Shown here piece by piece: positions 9,813 through 30,881 of a stretch of DNA of 64,000 bases (position 1 is the first letter of the stretch; each line of letters begins with the position of its first letter). This DNA comes from Flavobacterium commune (GTDB lineage: Bacteria; Bacteroidota; Bacteroidia; Flavobacteriales; Flavobacteriaceae). The translations under genes were made by a program, and so were the position numbers. The DNA is taken from positions 2,294,001 to 2,358,000 of the forward strand of contig NZ_CP017774.1 in the NCBI RefSeq assembly GCF_001857965.1. The letters run 5' to 3'. Under the pieces are notes generated by a model. That model did not search any database. It was not told the DNA's origin and saw only the letters and a program-made list of their open reading frames with translations.

Positions 9813-12800
9813 ATGAAAAAAAAATTAAATATAATTTTATGGTTCGCTGTTTTTCTAGTTTCACTAGGAATTAGCGCACAAAGCACAAAACCCACTATAA
9901 ATTCTACCCTTGATGGTGTAGTTATAGATCAAATTACAAAACAACCCATCCCAGGGGTTAATGTTCAAATTAAAGGAATTACACATAGTGTTATTACTGA
10001 TTTAGACGGGAAATTTAGTTTTCAAACAGGACAAAGTTTTCCTTACACATTGGTTATTACCTCTATAGGTTACATTAGCAAAGAACAAGTTGTTAATGAC
10101 AAGTTCATACAAATTGCATTAAAAGAGGATGTAAAGGAGCTGAATGAAGTGGTTGTTATTGGTTATGGAACTACTTCCAAAAAAGACTATACAGGAGCAG
10201 CCGAAACCGTTTCTACTCAGGCGTTGCGATCTACTCAGCGTAGTTTAGAGAGCGCACTCCAAGGCTCGGTTGCGGGGGTCAATGTGACTCAAACATCGGG
10301 TCAGCCTGGAGCAGGATTGAGTATTAGAGTTCGTGGAGGAAGTTCGATACAAGGAGGAAACGAGCCGCTTTATGTTATTGATGGTTTTCCAATTTACAAC
10401 TCAGATGTAACCTCAGGTGTTTTGAGCGGTAGTCCGACTAATCCACTTTCGGCAATTAATCCTGCAGATATTGAGTCGATTACAGTTTTAAAAGACGCTT
10501 CTTCTACAGCTATTTATGGTTCCAGAGGGGCAAACGGAGTAGTAATTGTTACTACTAAGAAAGGAAAATCGAATATCATGGCCGTAAATTACGATTACTC
10601 TTTAGGGCAACAAGAAGTTCGTAAAAAAGTATCAGTATTAGACGCTGCGGGGTTTTCAAGACTTAGAAATGCAGCTTTATATGATACTAATCCGGCGGGA
10701 GGGACTAACCAATACTTATCAGATGTTCAAATAGCTCAATTAGGAAAAGGGGTGGATTGGCAGGATGCCGCTTTTAGAACTGCCCAAACTCAAAATCATC
10801 AGTTGAGTGTTTCTGGTGGGAACAACCAAACCAAATATGCTATTTCCGGGAACTATTACAATCAGGAAGGAATTATAAAAAACACCGGTTTTGAACGTTT
10901 GAGTGGGCGAATTAATTTGAATTCAAAATTAAGTGATAAATCAAGATTTGGAGTGAATCTTTCGGTAGCTGAAACCAAGTCTAAAGTGGCGCCATCAGGG
11001 TTGATAACGGCTTTATTAAGTATGCCGCCTACGGCTACCATTTATGAAAGGGATGGTACTTACACATTAAGAAATCCTTTTGAAAACATCTTTTCAAATC
11101 CAATTGCTACTTTAAACGAACGTAAAAATAAAGCTGTAAATACAAGAGTTCTAGGAACTGTTTTTGGCGAATATGATGTATTGGAAAATTTAGTATTGAA
11201 AGTTTCTTTTGGAGCTGATCTTCTGGCTAATCAAGAAACTACTTATATTCCTTCTACTATATATGAAGGTTTGATTACTAATGGTGAGGCTAAAATAGGA
11301 AATGCTAATAACAAAACATGGTTGAACGAGAATACCTTGACTTATACTAAAGTATTTTCAGATGTACATAGTTTTAATCTTTTGGCGGGTTATACACAGC
11401 AAAGTTCAACCAGAGATTTTGTTACTACAGGATCACAACAGTTTGTAAATGATGTAACGGGCTCTAATAGTTTGCAAAGTGGAAATTTAGCATTGATTCC
11501 TACTTCCGGTGAAAGTAGATGGGCATTGAATTCGTATTTGTCAAGGTTAAATTATAATTATGATTCCAAATATTATTTGACTGCAAGTATTAGAGCCGAT
11601 GGTTCTTCCCGATTTGGAAAAAACAATAAATGGGGTTATTTTCCTTCTGTAGCGGCAGCTTGGCAAATTGATAGAGAAAACTTTTTTAGTCCGGTTTCTA
11701 ATGTAATTAATAGCTTGAAATTTAGAACAAGTTACGGATCTACAGGAAATCAGGAAATAGGAGAATACCAATCGTTATCTACATTGAGCAGTGTGAAATA
11801 TCTTTTTGGTGACCAAATTTATACTGGATTTACACCAACAAGAATTGCAAATGACGATTTAGGATGGGAATTAACCAATCAGTTTGATGCAGGAATTGAT
11901 TTAGGGATTTTTAATAATAAAGTGTTTCTTACTCTTGATGCTTATCGCAAAACGACTAAGAATTTATTGTTAGATGTTCAAATCCCATACACTAGCGGAT
12001 TTACATCTTCATTGCAAAATTTTGGTTCGGTACAAAATCAAGGAATTGAGTTAGGAATTAATACTTCTTTAAGCAATGGCAATTTATCATGGACCTCTAA
12101 TTTTAATATTGCTTTCAATAAAAATAAAGTTTTGGCTTTAGGTAATGATGCTGAATTCTACACTTTTGGAAATTACATTTTAAAAGTGGGAGACCCTTTA
12201 GGTTCATTTTACGGAGCAGTAACTGATGGGATTTTGCAAACGGCTGATATAGCAACTAAAGGCATTTTTACAGGAAATGCTACACCTAAAGCTGGGGATC
12301 GTTTGTACAAAGACATCAATGGCGATGGTGCATTTACAACTGCTGCTGATAGAACTACTATAGGGAATGCGCAACCTGATTTCACATTTGGATTCTCAAA
12401 TAACTTTATTTATAAAGGTTTTGAATTGGGTATTATAATACAAGGATCTGTTGGTAATGATATCCTGAACGGGAATTCACAAGCCTTAGAATTGTTCAAC
12501 GGACAGCAAAATGCGTCAACATCTGCTTTAGATGCCTGGACACCAGCTAATCCAAGTACAACGACTCCTCGTGCTAAGTTAGATCCGGCACCCGTATTCT
12601 CAAATCGATTTGTAGAAGATGGTTCGTTCGTTCGATTCAAAAACATCACATTGAGCTATAATTTACCTAAAACACTAATAGAGCAATTTAAATTGACTGC
12701 TGTAAAGTTAAGATTGGTAGGAGAGAACCTAATCACATTTACAAACTACAGCGGATTTGATCCGGAAGTAACTAACGGAAGTTCTATTTCTCCGGGAACA

Positions 12801-12860
12801 GATACGGGAATTTATCCTGCATCTAAAAGTATTTCGGCAGGTTTAAGTGTAACATTCTAA
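9813..12860 (+). CDS. SusC-like TonB-dependent transporter (sulfatase locus)
   Basis: A 1015-residue SusC-type receptor. It has a signal peptide (about 1-22, ending GISAQ), a carboxypeptidase-regulatory-like domain (about 33-110), a TonB-box-like VVVIGYGT, a plug (PLYVIDGFPIYN, LKDASSTAIYGSRGANGV) and a barrel ending in GLSVTF. It pairs with the SusD gene 10 bases downstream. Next to a sulfatase and its maturase it probably imports sulfated compounds, as a carbon source or, given the upstream signals, as a sulfur source. Confidence 0.96.
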   Translation: MKKKLNIILWFAVFLVSLGISAQSTKPTINSTLDGVVIDQITKQPIPGVNVQIKGITHSVITDLDGKFSFQTGQSFPYTLVITSIGYISKEQVVNDKFIQIALKEDVKELNEVVVIGYGTTSKKDYTGAAETVSTQALRSTQRSLESALQGSVAGVNVTQTSGQPGAGLSIRVRGGSSIQGGNEPLYVIDGFPIYNSDVTSGVLSGSPTNPLSAINPADIESITVLKDASSTAIYGSRGANGVVIVTTKKGKSNIMAVNYDYSLGQQEVRKKVSVLDAAGFSRLRNAALYDTNPAGGTNQYLSDVQIAQLGKGVDWQDAAFRTAQTQNHQLSVSGGNNQTKYAISGNYYNQEGIIKNTGFERLSGRINLNSKLSDKSRFGVNLSVAETKSKVAPSGLITALLSMPPTATIYERDGTYTLRNPFENIFSNPIATLNERKNKAVNTRVLGTVFGEYDVLENLVLKVSFGADLLANQETTYIPSTIYEGLITNGEAKIGNANNKTWLNENTLTYTKVFSDVHSFNLLAGYTQQSSTRDFVTTGSQQFVNDVTGSNSLQSGNLALIPTSGESRWALNSYLSRLNYNYDSKYYLTASIRADGSSRFGKNNKWGYFPSVAAAWQIDRENFFSPVSNVINSLKFRTSYGSTGNQEIGEYQSLSTLSSVKYLFGDQIYTGFTPTRIANDDLGWELTNQFDAGIDLGIFNNKVFLTLDAYRKTTKNLLLDVQIPYTSGFTSSLQNFGSVQNQGIELGINTSLSNGNLSWTSNFNIAFNKNKVLALGNDAEFYTFGNYILKVGDPLGSFYGAVTDGILQTADIATKGIFTGNATPKAGDRLYKDINGDGAFTTAADRTTIGNAQPDFTFGFSNNFIYKGFELGIIIQGSVGNDILNGNSQALELFNGQQNASTSALDAWTPANPSTTTPRAKLDPAPVFSNRFVEDGSFVRFKNITLSYNLPKTLIEQFKLTAVKLRLVGENLITFTNYSGFDPEVTNGSSISPGTDTGIYPASKSISAGLSVTF

Positions 12861-12870
12861 AAGAAACATC

Positions 12871-14322
12871 ATGAAAAAAATAAGCATATTAAGTTTACTG
12901 ATTCTTTTTACAATCAGTGCTTGTAATTCTTTGGACGAAGATCCAAAAGCATTTATTGCAGCGAATAATTTTTATAAAACAACAGAAGATGCTGAGGCAG
13001 CTGTAATTGCTATTCATAATGCGATGAATAGTGGTACCCATACTTTATACAATCGTTTAATTCAGATTTCGACAGAAATGGCTACGGATGATTATGAAGC
13101 AGGACCACGCGCCAGAAATGCGCATGTTAGAGCCTTATCAAATTTAACACATGATGCCTCAAATGACCGTATGTTAGAACTTTGGCGTCAAAGTTATGAT
13201 GGAATCAACAGAGCCAATGTCGCGATTGATAATATTTCGAATAACCCAGCTTTAAGTTCTCAAAAGGATAAGGATTTGGTGAATGAAGCGAAGTTTTTAA
13301 GAGCAGTTTTGTATTTCAATTTGGTGCGATGGTTTGGTGATGTACCATTGGTTTTACATGAAACCACAACTTTAACTTCGGAAGCTTTGAATGTTTCCAA
13401 TACAGCAGAAGCAGCTGTTTATGCCCAAATTGAAACGGATTTATTGGATGCCGAAGCATTGCCTGAAGTACAACAAATTAACGGAAGACCGACATCGGGT
13501 GCAGCAAAAAGTATTTTGTCTAAAGTGTATTTGACACAAAAGAAATGGCAACAAGCAGCCGAAAAAAGTAAAGAAGTGATTGATAGTGAAGTATATGATT
13601 TGTTCGAAGATTTTGCAGACGTGTTTAATGTTGCCACTAAAAATGGTAAAGAGCATATTTTCTCGGCACAGTTTAAAGGACTGACTAACTGGAATGGAAA
13701 CATGTTGGCTTCTACATCAGCACCTACTTCTGTACCGGGAATTGCAGGAGATCAGGCCGATGCTTTACACACAGCCGGAGGACTTTTTGAATCTTTTGCT
13801 GAAGATGACGCTCGTAAATATGTGACTTTTGCCGTTAAATATGTTAGTCCAACCGATGGAAAAACCTATGCCACAACTCCGCATTTTAATAAATATTTTG
13901 ATCCAACCACACCAGCTTCGCCGGGACAATCGTCAAAAAATACACCGATAATTCGATTTGCTGAGGTATTGTTAATCTATGCCGAAGCAGCAAATGAGTA
14001 TCAGAACGGACCATCAGCTTTAGCTTATGAAGCGATTGACAGAGTTAGAGAAAGAGCCCACATTCCGTTGCTTTCTGAAATTTTACCAGCTTTAAGTAAA
14101 GATGATTTTAGAGAGGCTGTTTTTAATGAGAGAAGAAAAGAATTGGTTTACGAATACCAACGTTGGTTTGATCTGGCACGAAGAGGACCAGATTATTTTG
14201 TAGCCCGATTGAAAGCCGCAGGAAAAAACAATGCACAGCCTAAACATGTTCATTTTCCAATTCCACAAAGAGAATTGGATTTAAACCCAAATTTGAAACA
14301 AAACTCAGATTGGAAATTATAA
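12871..14322 (+). CDS. SusD/RagB-like lipoprotein (sulfatase locus)
   Basis: A 483-residue SusD homologue. The lipobox FTISAC places the lipidated Cys at residue 18. Typical SusD segments are present: NEAKFLRAVLYFNLVRWFGD, IIRFAEVLLIYAEAANEY, FNERRKELVYEYQRWFDLAR and FPIPQRELDLNP. It starts 10 bases after susC and ends 28 bases before the sulfatase, so the three genes form one unit. Confidence 0.96.
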   Translation: MKKISILSLLILFTISACNSLDEDPKAFIAANNFYKTTEDAEAAVIAIHNAMNSGTHTLYNRLIQISTEMATDDYEAGPRARNAHVRALSNLTHDASNDRMLELWRQSYDGINRANVAIDNISNNPALSSQKDKDLVNEAKFLRAVLYFNLVRWFGDVPLVLHETTTLTSEALNVSNTAEAAVYAQIETDLLDAEALPEVQQINGRPTSGAAKSILSKVYLTQKKWQQAAEKSKEVIDSEVYDLFEDFADVFNVATKNGKEHIFSAQFKGLTNWNGNMLASTSAPTSVPGIAGDQADALHTAGGLFESFAEDDARKYVTFAVKYVSPTDGKTYATTPHFNKYFDPTTPASPGQSSKNTPIIRFAEVLLIYAEAANEYQNGPSALAYEAIDRVRERAHIPLLSEILPALSKDDFREAVFNERRKELVYEYQRWFDLARRGPDYFVARLKAAGKNNAQPKHVHFPIPQRELDLNPNLKQNSDWKL

Positions 14323-14350
14323 TTAAACAACTATTTTAAATTGAGATAAA

Positions 14351-15991
14351 ATGAAAAAAACTTTTATTACACTAAACCTTTTGCTGGCATTTGGCTTTTT
14401 TAGTCAGGCACAAAATACAACTTCAAAACCAAACATTGTTTTGATTATGGTCGATGATATGGGCTATTCTGACTTAGGAAATTATGGCTCCGAAATAAGC
14501 ACGCCTAATTTGGATAAATTAGCCAAAGAAGGAACACGCTTACGCGAATTTTATAACAACTCGATTTGTGCACCTACAAGAGCTTCGTTATTAACAGGGC
14601 AATATCAACATAAAGCGGGTGTTGGTTATTTTGATGTGAACTTAGGATTACCAGCGTATCAAGGCTATTTGAACAAAGAATCGCTAACATTAGGAGAAGT
14701 TTTCCGCTCAGGGGGTTACAGCACTTTAATGTCTGGAAAATGGCACGTTGGTTCCGAAGATAAAGCCCAGTGGCCTAATCAAAGAGGATTTGATAAGTTT
14801 TTTGGAATCTTAAAAGGCGGAGCCAATTATTTTAATACTAACGGATTGCCTTTTGGTAAAACACCCTATCCGGTGGCACTAATTAGAAATAATGAAGAAC
14901 TGCATCCTAAACCGGATTCCTATTACTTTACAGATGAAATTGGAAACAATGCCGTGCAATTTTTGGACGAACAAAACAAAGAAAACAAACCGTTCTTCTT
15001 ATATCTGGCTTTTACAGCGCCACACTGGCCATTACAGGCAAAAGCGGTTGATATTGCTAAATACAGAGGGAAATTTGATGAAGGTTGGGACGCCTTAAGA
15101 GAGAAAAGAATTCAAAAATTAAAAGAAAACGGTATTTTGTTAGCTGGTCAAACCATTGCTCCAAGAGATCCAGAAGTACCGGAATGGAATAAATTGACTT
15201 ATGACGAAAAACAATTCTGGAAGGCTAAAATGGAAGTTTACGCAGCAATGGTAGACAACATGGACCAGAACGTGGGGAAAGTGTTGGAGAAATTAAAAGC
15301 TTTGAAAAAAGATAAAAATACGCTGATTGTTTTCATCTCTGATAATGGAGCACAAGGTGGTTTCAATACTTACAATCCTTTAAGAAGAGGTTTGGTGAAA
15401 AATGACGGGCCAGTTGGAACTTCAGGTTCATTTGACTATCAGGAACAAAACTGGGCTTATTTGTCTAATACACCTTTGCAAGATTATAAAAATAATATGC
15501 ACGAAGGTGGCTTTAGTTCTCCTTTTATTGCCTGGTATCCGTCAAAAATTAAGCCGGGTCGTATTGACAAAGGAACAGGACATCTTATTGATTTAGCTCC
15601 TACTTTTTACGAATTGGCAGGAATTCAATATCCAAAAGAATTGAACGGTGTAAAATCAAATCCGTTAGTAGGAAAAAGTTTGTTACCGGTTTTATTTGAC
15701 GGTGCTTCCGAAGTGAATCGTGGTGCTCCAATATTCTGGGAAAGAGCAGGAAACAGAGCTGTTAGAGAAGGGAAATGGAAGTTGGTTTCTATTTATCCGT
15801 CTTACCAATGGGAATTATACGATTTAGAATCCGATAGAGGAGAAACAACCAATCTGGCTCAACAAAATCCAGCAATTGTGAACGATCTTTCGGCTAAATA
15901 TTTTGATTGGGCTAATAAAACAGGCGTGGTAGAATACAGCAAAATAAGGCCAGGAAATGAATTGATTCCTGGTGCAGCTACAAAGAAATAA
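14351..15991 (+). CDS. Secreted type-I sulfatase (arylsulfatase-like), Cys type
   Basis: A 546-residue S1-family sulfatase with a signal peptide ending FFSQAQ (about residue 21). Metal-binding residues appear in IVLIMVDDMGYSDLG. The formylglycine motif is CAPTRASLLTG with Cys73 as the residue to be oxidised. GKWHVG and a C-terminal domain are also present. It hydrolyses sulfate esters. The closest feel is the Pseudomonas-type arylsulfatase group, but the substrate cannot be read from the sequence. A dedicated formylglycine-generating enzyme lies downstream. Release of sulfate fits both glycan desulfation and sulfur scavenging. Confidence 0.94.
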   Translation: MKKTFITLNLLLAFGFFSQAQNTTSKPNIVLIMVDDMGYSDLGNYGSEISTPNLDKLAKEGTRLREFYNNSICAPTRASLLTGQYQHKAGVGYFDVNLGLPAYQGYLNKESLTLGEVFRSGGYSTLMSGKWHVGSEDKAQWPNQRGFDKFFGILKGGANYFNTNGLPFGKTPYPVALIRNNEELHPKPDSYYFTDEIGNNAVQFLDEQNKENKPFFLYLAFTAPHWPLQAKAVDIAKYRGKFDEGWDALREKRIQKLKENGILLAGQTIAPRDPEVPEWNKLTYDEKQFWKAKMEVYAAMVDNMDQNVGKVLEKLKALKKDKNTLIVFISDNGAQGGFNTYNPLRRGLVKNDGPVGTSGSFDYQEQNWAYLSNTPLQDYKNNMHEGGFSSPFIAWYPSKIKPGRIDKGTGHLIDLAPTFYELAGIQYPKELNGVKSNPLVGKSLLPVLFDGASEVNRGAPIFWERAGNRAVREGKWKLVSIYPSYQWELYDLESDRGETTNLAQQNPAIVNDLSAKYFDWANKTGVVEYSKIRPGNELIPGAATKK

Positions 15992-15995
15992 TAAT

Positions 15996-16090
15996 CTCTC
16001 AATAAAGAACTACAATTTTTAGCATTGAGAGGAACTCTTGGTTTGTTAGTGTTAGTTTGGTAAAAAGGGGCTGCTTCGGTTGTCCCTTTT
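15996..16090 (+). terminator. Two hairpins between sulfatase and FGE genes (weak terminator/attenuator)
   Basis: CTCTCAAT (15996-16003) pairs with ATTGAGAG (16024-16031). A second stem AAAAGGG...CCCTTTT around a TTCG loop spans about 16062-16090 and ends in only four T. Partial termination between the sulfatase and its maturase is plausible. Confidence 0.5.
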
Positions 16091-16165
16091 ACTCTGTTTT
16101 ATTGATTTTTAATGTAATGAAAGTAATAGGGTTTGTTTAAGGGATAACCCAAAAAAAAGGTAGTT

Positions 16166-17248
16166 ATGAAAATATATAGTTTAATAATAGGAGTTGTTTT
16201 TAGTGGTTTGTATTCCAGTTTTGCTCAAGAAAATAAGGCGGTTGCTGTAGTTACTACAACAAGTTGTGAAGCCATGTGCAAAGCCAATACCTCTAAGAAA
16301 GCCTTATTGTTACAATCAATTGCCAATATTTCTACTGAAAATATAACGAAATCAATTGACGGAATGGTCTGGGTTGCAGGAGGCGAATTCAAAATGGGAA
16401 CCAATGATTATCCCGATGCGCAGCCTGTTCACAGCGTAAGTGTAAAAGGATTTTGGATGGACCAACACGAAGTTACCAATGCACAATTTGAAGCATTTGT
16501 AAAAGCGACCAATTATATTACCATTGCCGAAAGACCTTTAAATCCCGATGAGTATCCCGGAGTTCCTCTTGAGAATTTAGTTCCTGGTTCTGCGGTATTT
16601 TCTCCTCCAACGGATAAAGTTTCGTTAGGAAATATTCAACAATGGTGGAAATATGTGCCAGGAGCCAATTGGAAACATCCATCTGGTCCTGAAAGTACGA
16701 TTGTGGGACTTGAAAATAATCCTGTGGTACAAATTAGTTATCCGGATGCTAAGGCTTATGCGGATTGGGCAGGGAAGCGTTTGCCAACAGAGGCCGAATG
16801 GGAGTTTGCTGCTCGTGCAGGTAGAGAGCATACTAAATATTATTGGGGTCAGGAGTTGAAGCCCAATGGCAAATGGTTGGCCAATATTTTTCAGGGAACT
16901 TTCCCGAATAACAATATTGCCGAAGACGGTTTTGTGGGTGCAGCTCCAGTGCAATCTTTTCCAAAAAATCCTTTTGGAATCTATGATTTGGAAGGAAATG
17001 TATGGGAATGGTGTAACGATTTATACCGAGATGATTATTATAAAATGAGTCCTCAGGATAATCCGCAAGGGCCTTTAGAAAGTCATGATCCCGAAGAACC
17101 GGGTGTTGAAAAACACGTGCAAAGAGGTGGTTCCTATTTGTGTAGCGACCAATATTGCATTCGCTATGTGGCAGGTAGCCGAGGAAAAGGGGAAACCACC
17201 AGTGCTTGTAATCACTTGGGTTTTCGCTGTGTGAAAGATGCTCAATAA
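16166..17248 (+). CDS. Exported formylglycine-generating enzyme (sulfatase maturase)
   Basis: A 360-residue FGE/SUMF1-fold protein. The signal peptide ends SSFAQ (about residue 21). The core begins MVWVAGGEFKMGTN, with WMDQHEVTNAQFEAFVKAT, RLPTEAEWEFAARAG and GNVWEWCNDLY. The C-terminus has RGGSYLCSDQYC and GFRC. Cys326 and Cys331 correspond to the catalytic pair of aerobic copper-dependent FGE (human Cys336/Cys341), so this looks like a true maturase and not only the fold. A short Cys pair near the mature N-terminus (SCEAMC, about residues 34-39) could bind metal; that is a guess. It lies 174 bases after the sulfatase and would act on it, before or during export. Confidence 0.92.
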   Translation: MKIYSLIIGVVFSGLYSSFAQENKAVAVVTTTSCEAMCKANTSKKALLLQSIANISTENITKSIDGMVWVAGGEFKMGTNDYPDAQPVHSVSVKGFWMDQHEVTNAQFEAFVKATNYITIAERPLNPDEYPGVPLENLVPGSAVFSPPTDKVSLGNIQQWWKYVPGANWKHPSGPESTIVGLENNPVVQISYPDAKAYADWAGKRLPTEAEWEFAARAGREHTKYYWGQELKPNGKWLANIFQGTFPNNNIAEDGFVGAAPVQSFPKNPFGIYDLEGNVWEWCNDLYRDDYYKMSPQDNPQGPLESHDPEEPGVEKHVQRGGSYLCSDQYCIRYVAGSRGKGETTSACNHLGFRCVKDAQ

Positions 17249-17278
17249 TTTTTGTGATTTAAAAATATATATAACATT

Positions 17279-17941
17279 ATGAGAAAAAAGATATTATTGT
17301 TTTTGGTGCTTGTACTTGCAATCGAAACGAGTTCAGCACAGAAGGTGAAGAAAATAAACCTACATACTGAAATTAAGAAAAACAGACTTCATATTGCAAA
17401 TAGAATTGCTAGTCCTTTGAATGATAAAAAATACCAAGGACTGGAACTAAACGAAAAGGAAGGCGAAGGAATAGTCTGGCTTCAAAACCAAAATTTCTCA
17501 AAAGGAAGTATCGAAATAGATGTGAAGGGACAGGATGTTTTTCAAAAGAGTTTTCTGGGGATTGCGTTTCACGGTCAAAATGATTCGATTTATGAAGCGG
17601 TTTATTTTAGACCCTTTAATTTTTATGCCCAGGATTCCGTGAGACGAATTCATGCGGTGCAATATATTGCGCATCCTAAATTTGGCTGGGAAAAGTTGAG
17701 GAAAGAAAGAAATGCCGAATTTGAAAAAGCAATTCCTAATGCTCCAGATCCTAACGGATGGTTTTATGCGCGAATTGAAATTAGTGCAACCGAAGTAGCT
17801 GTTTTTATCGAAAAAAATCTCAATCCAGTACTTCATGTAAAACGCTTAAGCCCTTATTCTGATGGTAAAGTTGGTCTCTTTGTAGGTGATAATTCAGGAG
17901 GGAAATTTGCAAATTTGAAGATAGTACGATTTAAGAGTTGA
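17279..17941 (+). CDS. Secreted jelly-roll protein, DUF1080/3-keto-glycoside-hydrolase-like
   Basis: A 220-residue exported protein with a signal peptide ending TSSAQ. The mature part looks like a single concanavalin/LamG-type sandwich: GIVWLQNQNFSKGSIEIDVK, FLGIAFHGQND, AVYFRPFNF, GWFYARIEI and GKVGLFVGDNSGGKFANL. This arrangement resembles DUF1080 domains, some of which hydrolyse 3-keto-disaccharides while others only bind sugars. No catalytic residues can be assigned. It closes the sulfatase locus, 30 bases after the FGE gene. Confidence 0.7.
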   Translation: MRKKILLFLVLVLAIETSSAQKVKKINLHTEIKKNRLHIANRIASPLNDKKYQGLELNEKEGEGIVWLQNQNFSKGSIEIDVKGQDVFQKSFLGIAFHGQNDSIYEAVYFRPFNFYAQDSVRRIHAVQYIAHPKFGWEKLRKERNAEFEKAIPNAPDPNGWFYARIEISATEVAVFIEKNLNPVLHVKRLSPYSDGKVGLFVGDNSGGKFANLKIVRFKS

Positions 17942-21158: not shown

Positions 21159-22019
21159 ATGGAGAAAATCAAATTAAAACATATTTCAGTAGTAATTGTT
21201 GCATTAAAACTGTTGTTAATAGCAGTAGTCGTTATCAAGTATTTACCCAACGCTTCCGCAGAAGATTTAACATTTAATCAAACATTTTTCTGGTTCTTGC
21301 TAGCGGGATTCTTGGCTCAAATAGTTGATGGAGCTTTAGGGATGGCCTATGGTGTTACTTCAAATTCGGTATTACTAGGTTTTGGACTTTCTCCCAGATT
21401 AGCTTCTGCAGCCGTACATACGGCAGAAGTTTTTACTACTGGTGTGTCAGGACTCTCGCATATTAAGTTTGGTAACTTTAACAAAGCATTGTTTTTAAAA
21501 TTAATAGTTCCCGGAGTTTTGAGCGCTTCAGTTGGAGCTTATTTATTAGGTTCTGTTATCGATGGGGAATATATAAAACCCTATGTTAGTCTTTATTTAG
21601 TAGTTCTGGGAGGAATTATTATTTCTAAAGCGTTTAAGAAAAATGCTGGCAAAAAAACTGATTTGAAGAAAGCACCTGTTTATGCTCTTTTTGGAGGTTT
21701 TTTAGACGCCATTGGAGGCGGAGGTTGGGGGCCAATTGTAACTTCTAATTTAATAAAAGAAGGACATACACCTAGCACGGTAATAGGAACAGTAAACACT
21801 GCCGAATTTTTTGTAACGTATTTTACCGCAGGAATTTTAATTTTTTTCACAGGAATTCAAAGTTGGCAAATTATCTTAGGGCTAATACTTGGAGGTACAT
21901 TAGCAGCACCTTTTGGAGCTTACATCGCAAAAAAGTTAGCTGTAAAAACGATGATGATAACCGTGGGAGTGTTAATTATATTGACTTCATTTTATACACT
22001 TTCAAAAGTCATTTTTTGA
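21159..22019 (+). CDS. TauE/SafE (DUF81) family sulfur-compound permease
   Basis: A 286-residue integral membrane protein with about eight hydrophobic segments. The two family repeats show LAGFLAQIVDGALGMAYGV and YALFGGFLDAIGGGGWGP. Family members export sulfite or sulfoacetate, or take up sulfur compounds; direction and substrate are not predictable here. Position directly before metY and the shared candidate operator support a role in sulfur supply, perhaps sulfate or sulfite transport. It begins about 76 bases after the promoter element. Confidence 0.9.
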   Translation: MEKIKLKHISVVIVALKLLLIAVVVIKYLPNASAEDLTFNQTFFWFLLAGFLAQIVDGALGMAYGVTSNSVLLGFGLSPRLASAAVHTAEVFTTGVSGLSHIKFGNFNKALFLKLIVPGVLSASVGAYLLGSVIDGEYIKPYVSLYLVVLGGIIISKAFKKNAGKKTDLKKAPVYALFGGFLDAIGGGGWGPIVTSNLIKEGHTPSTVIGTVNTAEFFVTYFTAGILIFFTGIQSWQIILGLILGGTLAAPFGAYIAKKLAVKTMMITVGVLIILTSFYTLSKVIF

Positions 22020-22061
22020 TGAATTAGAATTTTATTAGTACTAACTAGTTGGAGAGTAATT

Positions 22062-22076
22062 TTATAGATTAAGTAG
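22062..22076 (+). promoter_or_regulatory. Candidate sulfur-regulon operator, copy 3
   Basis: TTATAGATTAAGTAG matches 12 of 15 bases of copy 1. It overlaps or immediately precedes plausible -7 elements (TAGTTTAG at 22074 or TAGCTTG at 22079). The palindrome TTAGTACTAA lies just upstream at about 22035-22044. Confidence 0.45.
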
Positions 22077-22117
22077 TTTAGCTTGAAAATATTTTAAAAA
22101 TTAAAAACAGAACAAAG

Positions 22118-22204
22118 ATGAAAATAATAACAAAAACAATGAGACTGTGTTGTATGATGCCAATGTGCAGCACGGAAAGCTATTGCCTAAAACGGAAGAT
22201 ATAA
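22118..22204 (+). CDS. Cys/Met-rich 28-residue leader peptide of metY
   Basis: An ATG-started frame of 28 codons ending in TAA. It begins MKIITKTMRLCCMMPMC and continues to a second region with a further Cys. In all it has four Cys (11, 12, 17, 23) and five Met (1, 8, 13, 14, 16), far above normal. It is followed by a 6-bp hairpin (22205-22220) and a strong terminator (22226-22264) before metY. This is the classic layout of a transcription attenuator in which ribosome stalling at scarce Cys or Met codons permits read-through. Translation and sensing are inferred. Confidence 0.72.
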   Translation: MKIITKTMRLCCMMPMCSTESYCLKRKI

Positions 22205-22264
22205 TCATAGTTTACTATGAAATGTAAAAGTCCTTTTGGTAAGCTGTCCAAAAGGACTTTTTTT
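22205..22264 (+). terminator. Attenuator of metY: small hairpin plus 14-bp intrinsic terminator
   Basis: TCATAG (22205-22210) pairs with CTATGA (22215-22220). Then AAAAGTCCTTTTGG (22226-22239) pairs perfectly with CCAAAAGGACTTTT (22248-22261), followed by T to 22264. It lies between the leader peptide and metY, so by default it should stop transcription before metY. I found no convincing antiterminator by eye. Confidence 0.85.
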
Positions 22265-22320
22265 ATAAAGCAATTTTCAACAAGAATTAAAAAACAAAAT
22301 AGTATTAAAACATATCAATC

Positions 22321-23613
22321 ATGAGCACACAAAAATTTGAAACAAACGCATTACACGCAGGACACGACGTAACAAAAAACGCAGGAACAAGAGCTGTACC
22401 AATTTACCAAACAAGTTCTTACGTATTTAATAATTCGGAACACGCTGCCAATCTTTTTGGTTTGGCCGAAGCAGGATTTATTTACACGCGATTAAATAAT
22501 CCAACAAATGATATTTTAGAACAACGCTTAGCAAAACTCGAGGGAGGAATTGGTGCAGTGGTTACTGCTTCAGGTACATCGGCCATAGCTACGGCCTTAT
22601 TGGTTTTATTGAAAGCAGGAGATCACATCGTTGCTTCGAATAGTTTATACGGAGGAACTTATAATTTGCTGAAAGTAACCTTACCTAGATTAGGTATCAC
22701 GACCACTTTTGTAGATGCCTCTGATCCATCTAACTTTATTAACGCTGCAAAAGAAAATACAAGAGTATTTTTTGCAGAGAGTTTAGGAAATCCAAAATTA
22801 GATGTGCTGGATTTAAAGGCTATTTCGGATGTAGCGAAGCAATTTAAAGTGCCTTTTATTGTAGACAATACCGTGGCATCACCTTATTTATTAAACCCAA
22901 TTGAATACGGAGCCAATATTGTGATTCATTCATTGACCAAATATATTTCGGGTAATGGAACTTCGCTTGGAGGGGTAATTATCGATGCAGGAAATTTTGA
23001 TTGGAGCAATGGTAAATTCCCTGAATTTACCGATCCTTCTCCGGGTTATCACGGTTTAGTATACCATGAAGTATTAGGAAATGCCGCTTATATTGCAAAA
23101 GTTCGTATTGAAGGTCTTAGAGATTACGGAGCAGCCTTGAGTCCATTTAACGCTTTTCAGATTATTCAGGGATTAGAAACTTTGGCAGTTCGTGTTAAAA
23201 GACATAGTGAAAACGCATTGGCTCTTGCCCAATGGCTGGAACTTCAAAAAGAAGTGGCCTGGGTAAATTATCCGGGATTGAAGGTGAGTAAGCAATATGT
23301 TCTGGCACAAAAATATTTGCCAAAAGGACAAAGTGGTGTTTTGACCTTTGGTCTAAAAGGAGGATTTGAAGCCGCTAAAAAGCTCGCCGACAGTGTGAAA
23401 TTATTTTCTCTTTTGGCCAATATAGGGGATACCAAGTCCCTGATTATTCACCCTGCCAGTACAACACACCAGCAATTATCGGAAGAAGAGCAAATTGCTA
23501 CGGGTGTTACCAATGATTTAATTCGCCTTTCGGTAGGATTAGAAGATATAGAAGATTTAAAAACCGATTTAAAAGAGGCTTTTGCAAAGCTTCCGGTTGA
23601 AAAGTTAGTTTAG
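22321..23613 (+). CDS. metY: O-acetylhomoserine sulfhydrylase
   Basis: A 430-residue PLP enzyme of the Cys/Met metabolism family. Landmarks are FETNALHAGHDVT, the YQTSSYVF and TRLNNPT segments, HSLTKYISG with Lys207 as the PLP Schiff-base lysine, and the end segment THQQLSEEEQ/RLSVGLEDIEDL. It makes homocysteine from O-acetylhomoserine and sulfide. The length of about 430 and the insertion pattern fit MetY rather than cystathionine synthases. It is governed by the leader and attenuator directly upstream and followed by homoserine dehydrogenase. Confidence 0.94.
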   Translation: MSTQKFETNALHAGHDVTKNAGTRAVPIYQTSSYVFNNSEHAANLFGLAEAGFIYTRLNNPTNDILEQRLAKLEGGIGAVVTASGTSAIATALLVLLKAGDHIVASNSLYGGTYNLLKVTLPRLGITTTFVDASDPSNFINAAKENTRVFFAESLGNPKLDVLDLKAISDVAKQFKVPFIVDNTVASPYLLNPIEYGANIVIHSLTKYISGNGTSLGGVIIDAGNFDWSNGKFPEFTDPSPGYHGLVYHEVLGNAAYIAKVRIEGLRDYGAALSPFNAFQIIQGLETLAVRVKRHSENALALAQWLELQKEVAWVNYPGLKVSKQYVLAQKYLPKGQSGVLTFGLKGGFEAAKKLADSVKLFSLLANIGDTKSLIIHPASTTHQQLSEEEQIATGVTNDLIRLSVGLEDIEDLKTDLKEAFAKLPVEKLV

Positions 23614-23637
23614 TTTGTTTTTGGTTTTTTTTTATAG

Positions 23638-23664
23638 CTGCCCTCATTGGTTGGTTGGGGGCAG
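23638..23664 (+). terminator. Weak hairpin between metY and the homoserine dehydrogenase gene
   Basis: CTGCCC pairs with GGGCAG across a 15-base loop, followed by only three T on the plus strand. On the minus strand an A/T-rich run follows. It probably allows partial read-through. Confidence 0.4.
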
Positions 23665-23699
23665 TTTAAAAAAAACAATAAATTAGTAATAGAGAAATC

Positions 23700-24803
23700 A
23701 TGTCAGCAATACGTATAAATGTAGTCCTTTTTGGAGTTGGAAACATAGGCAGTGAACTGTTAAGTCAGGTCATTGAAAGCCAGCGATTTTTTCTTGAAAA
23801 AAGAAATATCGATTTGCGTTTTCCTGTAATTACAAATTCTACATTGGCTTTCTTTGAAAAAGAAGGCGTTAAAAATAAATGGGAAGCCGATTTTACAAAA
23901 TTGGCATTTCCGTATAAATTTCAGGACATATTGGATTATGTGAAGGAAAAGAAATTAGACAACCTGATTGCGGTAGATGCTACTGCAAGTTCTGAAATTA
24001 TTAAAAATTATATTCCGCTTATCCAAAACGGTTTTAATATTGTGGCTGCCAATAAAAAAGCCAATACCTTACATATTGAATTTTATAAAGAATTGCGTCG
24101 GGTATTAAAAAAACACGACAAGAGTTTCTTGTATGAAGCTACGGTGAGCGCAGGTTTACCGGTAATTAAAACCATTCGCGATTTGCATTTTTCAGGAGAA
24201 AAAATTACCAAAATCAGAGGGGTTTTTTCAGGCTCATTGAGTTATATTTTCAATCGGTTTTCTAATGAGGAGGAATATTTCTCTTCAATATTAAAGGATG
24301 CCGAGAAATTAGGTTTGACTGAACCGGATTCCCGCGAAGATTTGGCCGGAAATGATGTGGCACGAAAATTACTCATTTTAGCCCGCGAAATCGAAAATGA
24401 ATTTGATTTTTCGGATGTAAAAATAGTGTCTTTGTTGTTGCCTAATTTGAATGAGAATGTTTCGAAAGTTGAATACAATAGAAACAAATCCTTATTAGAC
24501 AAGCCTTTCCGATTGGCTAAACTGGCTCAGGCTGAAAATAATGTGTTGCGTTATGTGGGCGAATTGGATATTGCCAAAAAGAAATTGGATGTAAAACCGG
24601 TTTCGGTATTCAGGGATTCGGTTATTGGTCAATTAAAAGGGGCAGATAATCTGGTTGAGATATATACCAAAAGCAATGCGGAGCCTATTGTGATTCAGGG
24701 GGCAGGGGCAGGAAGACAGGTAACGGCAAGAAGTGTGCTGACGGATATTTTAGAAGTCGCGGAAAAAATTAAGATTAAAGAAACTGTTTTAGAATTGATT
24801 TAA
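23700..24803 (+). CDS. Homoserine dehydrogenase, monofunctional
   Basis: A 367-residue NAD(P)-dependent enzyme. The Rossmann motif GVGNIG is at about residues 12-17 and the catalytic domain has NIVAANKKANT, YEATVSAGLPVIKTI and RGVFSGSLSYIFN. It reduces aspartate semialdehyde to homoserine, the precursor of the MetY substrate. It lacks both an aspartokinase domain and an ACT domain, so it is a short form separate from any ThrA fusion. Its place after metY suggests a methionine-dedicated copy. Confidence 0.92.
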   Translation: MSAIRINVVLFGVGNIGSELLSQVIESQRFFLEKRNIDLRFPVITNSTLAFFEKEGVKNKWEADFTKLAFPYKFQDILDYVKEKKLDNLIAVDATASSEIIKNYIPLIQNGFNIVAANKKANTLHIEFYKELRRVLKKHDKSFLYEATVSAGLPVIKTIRDLHFSGEKITKIRGVFSGSLSYIFNRFSNEEEYFSSILKDAEKLGLTEPDSREDLAGNDVARKLLILAREIENEFDFSDVKIVSLLLPNLNENVSKVEYNRNKSLLDKPFRLAKLAQAENNVLRYVGELDIAKKKLDVKPVSVFRDSVIGQLKGADNLVEIYTKSNAEPIVIQGAGAGRQVTARSVLTDILEVAEKIKIKETVLELI

Positions 24804-30505: not shown

Positions 30506-30775
30506 CTATTTTCTGATACCCAATACTTTGATAATTTCACGATATCTGTTGATTTCGGTCTTTTTCAAGTAGTCAAGTAAAGCTCTTCTTTTACCTACTA
30601 ATTTCACAAGTGAACGCTCAGTATTGTAATCGTGACGATTTTTTTTCAAGTGTTCAGTCAAGTGGTTGATTCTGAATGAGAACAAAGCGATTTGTCCTTC
30701 TGCTGATCCTGTGTTTTCTGCTTTTCCTCCGTGTTTAGCGAAGATTTCTGCTTTTACTTCTTTAGATAAGTACAT
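30506..30775 (-). CDS. rpsO: 30S ribosomal protein S15
   Basis: 89 residues, normal length. Landmarks are NTGSAEGQIALFSFRINHLTEHLKKNRHDY and LVKLVGKRRALLDYLKK. It binds 16S rRNA in the platform of the small subunit. Confidence 0.98.
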   Translation of the reverse strand: MYLSKEVKAEIFAKHGGKAENTGSAEGQIALFSFRINHLTEHLKKNRHDYNTERSLVKLVGKRRALLDYLKKTEINRYREIIKVLGIRK

Positions 30776-30881
30776 GCTAATATTATTTAATGATTATTAT
30801 GTATGTCAAACAATTATTGTAAGACGGCAGCAAAAGTAATACATTATTTTGAATTTACAATGGAAATCAATTATTTCTGTT

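Follow-up and report, generated by a model that had tools for sequence, protein, structure and literature searches.

A predicted leader-peptide attenuator with Cys and Met codons upstream of metY in Flavobacterium commune and related bacteria

The region upstream of metY in Flavobacterium commune is best explained as a ribosome-mediated transcription attenuator, a reading that we hold with high confidence. It lies in a 64,000-nucleotide stretch of contig NZ_CP017774.1, here called the window. In the proposed mechanism, RNA polymerase would transcribe the leader while a ribosome trails it through a 28-codon frame rich in Cys and Met codons. If charged Cys- and Met-tRNA are plentiful, this ribosome would arrive at the stop codon and cover an RNA segment (segment 2), and a terminator would form before metY. 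When Cys or Met is scarce, the ribosome would stall within codons 8–17, leaving segment 2 free to pair with a downstream segment (segment 3); this pairing would block the terminator, and metY, perhaps together with the homoserine dehydrogenase gene, would be transcribed. In relatives with two such units in series (A, then B), polymerase would need to get through both gates. Computation shows the frame together with its conservation in translated form, the terminator, and an alternative pairing that depends on ribosome position; from these results we infer translation in vivo, stalling at the Cys/Met codons, read-through and a single transcript with both units.

The frame (MKIITKTMRLCCMMPMCSTESYCLKRKI) is located on the plus strand at 22118–22204 and consists of 28 codons and a stop, with four Cys and, counting the start, five Met codons, exactly as claimed in a preliminary description of the region. 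It is the sole ORF of 12–60 codons with at least four Cys and at least five Met on either strand of the 64 kb, and no ORF of this kind appeared in 2000 dinucleotide shuffles of 22020–22320. Sequence and alignment A2 (see below) place it in the B type of unit, and we predict that it is a sensor read by the ribosome. Sequence and ribosome-position folding point to Met at codon 8 and Cys-Cys-Met-Met-Pro-Met-Cys at codons 11–17 (22139–22168) as the regulatory codons. In the fold, a hairpin covers the Cys/Met codons (22145–22175; –13.2 kcal/mol for 22140–22180); it is unlike the 1:2 stem of most relatives, which is degenerate in the window. The last leader codons carry segment 2 (22178–22196), the predicted 5′ strand of an antiterminator according to folding and shuffles. 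Next come a small 6-bp hairpin (22205–22220, –4.0 kcal/mol), nested in the predicted antiterminator, and an intrinsic terminator (22226–22264, –18.5 kcal/mol) with a 14-bp stem (22226–22239/22248–22261) and a T-run at 22258–22264; both hairpins had been reported ahead of metY in the preliminary description and are found there. Segment 3 (22231–22245), the antiterminator 3′ strand predicted by folding, shares bases with the 5′ arm and the loop of the terminator (UCCUUUUGGUAAGCU). A simple terminator scan of the window did not list the hairpin at 22226–22261, probably because its stem uses most of the T-run; direct folding reveals it. Region 22085–22270 as a whole folds with z = –4.24, and none of 200 shuffles was equally stable. 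NCBIfam had no model for the eight leaders tried, and the attenuator, if real, would give small frames without family models a function.

All genes around the leader are on the plus strand. metY (22321–23613; TIGR01326 above cut-off, PF01053) encodes O-acetylhomoserine sulfhydrylase and is followed by a gene for homoserine dehydrogenase (23700–24803; PF00742), which, judging by gene order, is perhaps co-read with metY. By eye, 23614–23699 contains a GC-rich hairpin (CTGCCCTC...GGGGGCAG), and the two genes may therefore be partly uncoupled. A weak promoter candidate (22049–22081, plus strand), with TTG at 22049–22051 and TAGTTTAG at 22074–22081, was picked by eye in comparison with TTG/TAnnTTTG, which we take to be the Bacteroidota consensus. 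Upstream, a gene identified by domain match as a TauE/SafE family exporter (21159–22019) stops 98 nt short of the frame. The hairpin might simply be the terminator of this gene, a role that any terminator between genes could fill, and the small frame a chance ORF. We regard this as very improbable. The leader and terminator are kept at loci where the neighbour is divergent (a frame of 416 residues, by eye presumably metK, that runs on the other strand), the antiterminator overlaps the terminator, and the frame, besides being beyond the reach of the shuffles, acquires alignment gaps in multiples of three.

To form the antiterminator, 22178–22196 is predicted to pair with the terminator 5′ arm and loop at 22231–22245 (–17.0 kcal/mol for 22178–22247 versus –18.5 kcal/mol for the terminator). 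Ribosome positions were modelled on the RNA preceding the terminator 3′ arm, and only bases at least 12 nt downstream of the first A-site base were treated as free. For A-site positions at codons 2–20 of the window frame, 9.1 to 12.1 antiterminator pairs are expected (11.4 to 12.1 at codons 11–17); the expectation is 1.0 at codon 21 and none from codon 23 on. Pairing is kept at codons 8–17 and gone near the stop, and read-through is therefore predicted to be favoured at the former and termination at the latter. Folding with a stalled ribosome, a check suggested in the preliminary description, thus predicts the antiterminator for a ribosome on codons 8–17 and its loss beyond about codon 20. Codon 23, which is the fourth Cys, therefore falls beyond the predicted switch point. 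Base shuffles of the segment 2 region (22178–22204) matched the observed pairing in 3 of 500 cases and codon shuffles in none of 500.

The same calculation was extended to aligned units of relatives. In each of the 36 B units and each of the 39 A units, mean antiterminator pairing was higher over the Cys/Met codons than at the stop. Part of this fall is a product of the model itself, since a ribosome at the stop codon covers segment 2. With no ribosome in the fold, every one of the 36 B units still formed the antiterminator (6.4 to 15.0 pairs), with a mean of 10.7 pairs versus 11.2 with the ribosome on Cys/Met codons; the corresponding means for A units were 3.8 and 7.6. Absent translation would therefore not repress in B units, in contrast to the full classical scheme. 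The attenuator reading of the preliminary description is supported and in large part correct; it needs amending for the antiterminator, which it lacked, for the tandem units of relatives and for the fourth Cys past the switch.

Conservation was assessed in the best 80 of 495 metY relatives from named genomes, nearly all of them Flavobacterium; among these 80, the closest metY comes from Flavobacterium sufflavum (98% identity). One or more Cys/Met-rich leaders, with a terminator behind, are present at 77 of these 80 loci, so the frame and its Cys/Met codons proved to be conserved in related genomes, which was one of the two points on which the preliminary description had made its reading depend. 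Two kinds of unit occur: A units read like MNFTMCNMCMMMWNNPQRKPIA, and B units, to which the window belongs, like MKTIVNKMMMCCMMRMCIPICYCQKQRI. After five script rows were reassigned by eye from B to A, unit A is found at 48 of the 80 loci and unit B at 61; these counts include 32 loci with both units, where A comes first. The window keeps one of two attenuators that are often tandem in its relatives. Of the three loci without a unit, L114 has a SAM-I riboswitch in place of leader and terminator. The other two (L059, L062) have a Cys-rich frame ~270 nt before metY inside an inverted repeat (TTGAAGACT/AGTCTTCAA), with no terminator.

Several loci of this set depart from the common arrangement. 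In ten (L045, L046, L047, L050, L052, L054, L057, L060, L061, L110) a fairly constant frame like MKIAIYNPRRCCRMCS replaces unit B ~100–120 nt before metY, and no terminator was found behind these frames; this may be a different gate, perhaps Rho-dependent or translational. L064 and L087 carry a ~60-codon frame (starting MKTLDINTIAFQYLL in L064) between terminator B and metY. In L043 (F. psychrophilum) an A-type frame ~340 nt before metY, as seen by eye, apparently lacks the usual stop and enters the terminator.

Tandem leaders are present too among 30 loci taken from 60 genomes. Family searches with R1 and R2 gave matches in 31 and 35 of 149 genomes at an E-value of 1e-3, many of the near-threshold ones probably being due to chance, and only matches located before metY were relied on. 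Seven genomes matched by both models have A and B units before metY: G186, of the same genus, and G155, G170, G106, G062, G090 and G075, of other genera. The two matches are only 18–33 nt apart in five of the seven, and a separate promoter for B is therefore unlikely in those five genomes.

How the two parts of a unit are conserved was studied in alignments of 39 of the 48 A units (A1) and of the window with 35 of the 61 B units (A2), near-duplicates being left out; the start codons of A in L042 and L056 and of B in L071 were shifted by eye to an in-frame ATG further on. Every one of the 122 gap runs within the A2 frame has a length divisible by three, compared with 17 of 115 after the stop, a count obtained with an aligner blind to codons and from related sequences that share gaps. 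Cys is encoded by TGT as well as TGC, with counts of 56/32 in A1 and 92/62 in A2. Near the end of the A frame, the word CCGCAGAG or close variants of it copies the terminator 3′ arm; it is read as Ser-Ala-Glu-like (SAE type) in 21 of the 39 A units and as Pro-Gln-Arg-like (PQR type) in 18, while the Cys/Met codons of A1 remain in phase in spite of the two readings. The phased gaps and the one RNA word in two frames thus indicate that the peptide part is conserved as codons and the antiterminator part as RNA.

These patterns bear on the idea of a trans-acting product, such as a small metal-binding or redox peptide, which the high Cys/Met content would suit. We consider such a role highly improbable, since composition is conserved more than residue order, the end of the A peptide switches frame while the RNA word persists, some A leaders (L185, L186, L188, L190, L191) contain no Cys, and the frames precede terminators and sulfur genes.

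Returning to the attenuator, its helices were examined by pair counts against shuffles, which leave the relatedness of the sequences in place. The twelve pairs of the B terminator in A2 are formed throughout (100% of cells) and include 23 double-change cells, a number that 0 of 500 shuffles reached, and the A terminator is likewise 100% paired with one double-change cell (10 of 500). The B 1:2 stem, which joins codons 3–6 with the frame end, has 71.8% of cells paired and 39 double-change cells (0 of 500), though 57 of 500 shuffles contain as many doubly changed pairs. For the A 1:2 stem the values are 83.9% and 12 double-change cells (0 of 500); its doubly changed pairs (3) and further pair types (8) were matched by 340 and 362 of 500 shuffles, respectively. 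The ten-pair antiterminator helix of B is paired in 88.7% of A2 cells without any double-change cell, and that of A in 98.7% with one (23 of 500). Covariation sought in the antiterminators of A1 and A2 is thus almost absent, the helices being nearly invariant.

Which of the two amino acids is sensed can be approached through leader composition. Each A1 leader has 1–4 Cys and 2–6 Met after the start, and each A2 leader 2–6 Cys and 3–9 Met. It is possible, though we lean against it, that attenuation is real and responds to one signal only, Met alone or Cys alone, with the remaining codons incidental. Met-only or one-Cys leaders speak for such a single signal: the A leaders of L185, L186, L188, L190 and L191 have five Met after the start and no Cys (no metY was seen behind that of L191), and the tandem leaders of L019 and L020 have Met runs with a single Cys in B. 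Cys-dominated leaders located behind SAM-I in other Bacteroidia point the same way. Yet every one of the 36 aligned B units has at least two Cys and at least three Met after the start, and the interchange of the two among lineages suggests that either one can be the signal. Leaders ahead of other sulfur genes add to this picture. In L260 a Cys-dominated B leader stands ahead of sulfate-activation genes, by eye presumably cysD/cysN, and in L255 and L256 an A leader stands ahead of what look by eye like genes of cysteine synthase and sulfite reduction. We read the leaders as responding to both amino acids, whose weight would shift among lineages and operons. Because some leaders of Flavobacteriaceae are Met-only or one-Cys, Met appears at least as central as Cys in this family. 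Sensing of Met is complicated, however, since Met shortage should slow initiation too.

We further compared leaders with the SAM-I riboswitch across Bacteroidia. A search of 395 Bacteroidia genomes detected MetY in 97 of them with an E-value no higher than 1e-100. The matches occupy 104 places, of which ten belong to Flavobacteriaceae; 95 upstream regions were compared, comprising the 94 places outside Flavobacteriaceae and L324, a distant Flavobacteriaceae metY. SAM-I precedes metY in 48 of these 95 loci according to Rfam. A script covering 600 nt before metY found one Cys-rich leader in 37 of the 48 SAM-I loci (three doubtful) and two leaders in none. Among the 47 loci without SAM-I it found a leader in 14 (three doubtful), and eight of these, from four families, are tandem. 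Within the same 600 nt, 44 of the 95 loci gave no such leader. If relatedness of the loci is ignored, tandem leaders differ between the two groups (8 of 47 without SAM-I versus 0 of 48 with it; Fisher test, P = 0.0026). So does the Met share of Cys plus Met, with a median of 0.25 with SAM-I versus 0.50 without (P = 0.0005, again ignoring relatedness, and including doubtful ORFs in L284, L329 and L344 without SAM-I and in L232, L235 and L324 with it). A clean terminator stands behind each leader in the tandem loci L273, L303, L305 and L312 by script, and likewise in L229 by eye; L227 has one behind the second leader only, and none is convincing in L228 and L237.

Flavobacteriaceae offer a similar contrast. 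In six metY loci of this family with SAM-I (L114, L268–L272) the script found no Cys/Met leader, and L324, the seventh, has SAM-I plus a possible Met/Cys frame before metY. Conversely, a SAM-I motif search covering up to 900 nt before metY (less in four shorter loci) found none in the other 79 named loci; a motif lies further downstream in 59 of them. The regular expression used misses 16 of the 48 Rfam positives, was applied to Flavobacterium loci only, and matches somewhere in 60 of the 80; five of the 79 loci (L035, L038, L059, L062, L112) were searched with Rfam itself and the rest by motif. As far as sequence comparison can tell, tandem Cys/Met leaders thus seem to be an alternative to SAM-I at metY.

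Control of metY by SAM-I in many Bacteroidia also invites the thought that the window carries a metabolite riboswitch (for SAM or another ligand) or a protein-bound RNA, translation of the frame being irrelevant. There is very little chance of this in our judgement. Rfam gave no family at gathering score over 22118–22264 and no SAM family upstream of metY in the window (the only gathering-score match in the window, at 30773–30838, is the known S15-Flavobacteria ribosomal protein leader). By eye, A1 and A2 show no conserved core besides the frame, segments 2 and 3 and the terminator, and the codon phasing of gaps speaks for translation of the frame.

Taking attenuation at metY as the preferred reading, we put forward a broader one to which we give an even chance: a Bacteroidota-wide interchangeable module in which one or two leader gates for Met- and Cys-tRNA would replace SAM-I at metY and would also precede sulfite-reduction, sulfate-activation and uptake genes, with the leader behind SAM-I being mostly a Cys gate and a Met-richer gate often placed in front at loci lacking SAM-I. 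On this reading Met would serve as a regulatory codon in classical attenuation, a use that we did not find described in a literature search. If attenuation by such leaders is real, methionine and cysteine synthesis would be under control of ribosome speed throughout Bacteroidia, and riboswitch and leader peptides swapping at one gene would make a natural experiment. Two like gates in series should yield a steep, multiplicative response.

Frame-plus-terminator sites are concentrated before metY. The 80 named loci (851 kb) contain 398 terminator-like sites, 148 of them behind a Cys/Met-rich frame, and 107 of these stand before metY. Of the 41 located elsewhere, 40 are on the metY strand, and the lone opposite-strand site looks like chance. 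Twenty-two of the 40 have A-type leaders 3.5–3.8 kb upstream, where a 948-residue frame, by eye presumably a TonB-dependent receptor, separates A from B. A third kind of leader, ending in CVC-like runs, accounts for another 12, which lie ~3.1 kb downstream; the remaining six belong to neither kind.

Elsewhere in the window's genome, locus L175 holds a second, weaker tandem (R2 score 48.5 bits) before what by eye is a metX/aspartokinase operon adjoining metK. Between metK and this operon (L175:11572–12987, G000:C1:964000–980000) lie SAM-II, the weaker tandem leaders, a 68-residue frame and SAM-I, that is, several RNA sulfur sensors within 1.5 kb. In other genomes, models A and B match side by side in L183 (G081:C2:27536–27835) before genes unlike metY, and the minus strand of L253 (6735–6974) has a pair of frames rich in Cys and Met ahead of a gene that by eye encodes a transporter. 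Other candidates were rejected. Besides metY, the exact word TGYTGYATGATG has three matches in the window's genome, two inside or antisense to ordinary-looking genes and one near a gene end, none of them a leader by eye. The R2 match at G000:C1:234206–234319 in this genome is a terminator behind a gene, and among A-model matches in other families L261 and L263 have no leader by ORF scan and L264 is doubtful.

The classical trp, his, leu and ilv attenuators of Proteobacteria have a short frame with codons for the pathway amino acid before a biosynthetic gene and a choice, set by the ribosome, between antiterminator and intrinsic terminator. The window resembles them in both respects, with an enriched frame, a terminator before the gene and, as predicted by folding, a position-dependent antiterminator. 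The window and its relatives differ from them in the Cys/Met codons, the many tandems, the placement of an antiterminator strand within the last codons and the occurrence in Bacteroidota. Comparative work is reportedly due to the Lyubetsky group in 2010. A literature search brought up no description that we recognised of Met/Cys leader-peptide attenuation in Bacteroidota. The mechanism class is classical, while the Met/Cys signal, the tandem form and the exchange with SAM-I appear new. Background on leader attenuation in the classical systems is found in the available parts of PMC1262725 and PMC2965389.

Among other known systems, the Cys-run leader ORFs of Actinobacteria, including mycobacteria, share with the window a Cys-rich short frame before sulfur amino-acid genes, and the Cys-run leaders behind SAM-I in other Bacteroidia look most like them. 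The Mycobacterium cys leaders have no conserved terminators according to PMC1262725, and an excerpt of PMC13236596, citing Canestrari 2020, ascribes translation attenuation to mycobacterial polycysteine ORFs. The window unit is unlike these polycysteine attenuators in having a terminator, an antiterminator and Met codons; where they have a Cys run near the stop and no terminator, its cluster is at codons 11–17, so the sole likeness to the mycobacterial polycysteine attenuator is the use of Cys codons. The Salmonella mgtCBR leader, called a singular example in the available section of PMC3641672, contains two short ORFs for unlike signals (ATP and proline). It is similar to the tandem units in having two short ORFs per leader, one of which senses a charged tRNA (proline), whereas, as far as that section describes it, tandem A and B differ in carrying Cys and Met codons in both units and an intrinsic terminator each. 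SAM-I (RF00162) in Bacteroidia serves the same gene, metY, and the same physiological purpose, and differs by sensing SAM directly.

For the genus itself, a 2021 transcriptome study of F. psychrophilum reports, in its accessible portion, clues for leader-peptide attenuation before amino-acid operons (PMC9723704). The elements named in that portion are at pheA, hisG and others, not metY, and the word 'methionine' is absent from the main text; priority for the bare idea of leader attenuation in Flavobacterium may lie in the supplementary list of that study.

The proteins encoded downstream of the leader are themselves poor in the two amino acids. Neither MetY (430 residues) nor homoserine dehydrogenase (367 residues) contains any Cys, or any Met after the start, compared with a mean Cys/Met content of 2.4% over the 46 window frames that are 150 codons or longer. 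Among the MetY proteins of the 80 named loci, 79 are without Cys (L114 has one) and 76 without internal Met. Such Cys/Met-free composition fits genes that would be translated under Met/Cys scarcity. Elsewhere in the window, 9813–17941 encodes a SusC-like receptor of 1015 residues with only two Met after the start and no Cys, together with SusD, a protein with a formylglycine-generating-enzyme domain and a 220-residue protein without Cys or internal Met; from its composition, this is perhaps a sulfur-scavenging locus that could be made without sulfur.
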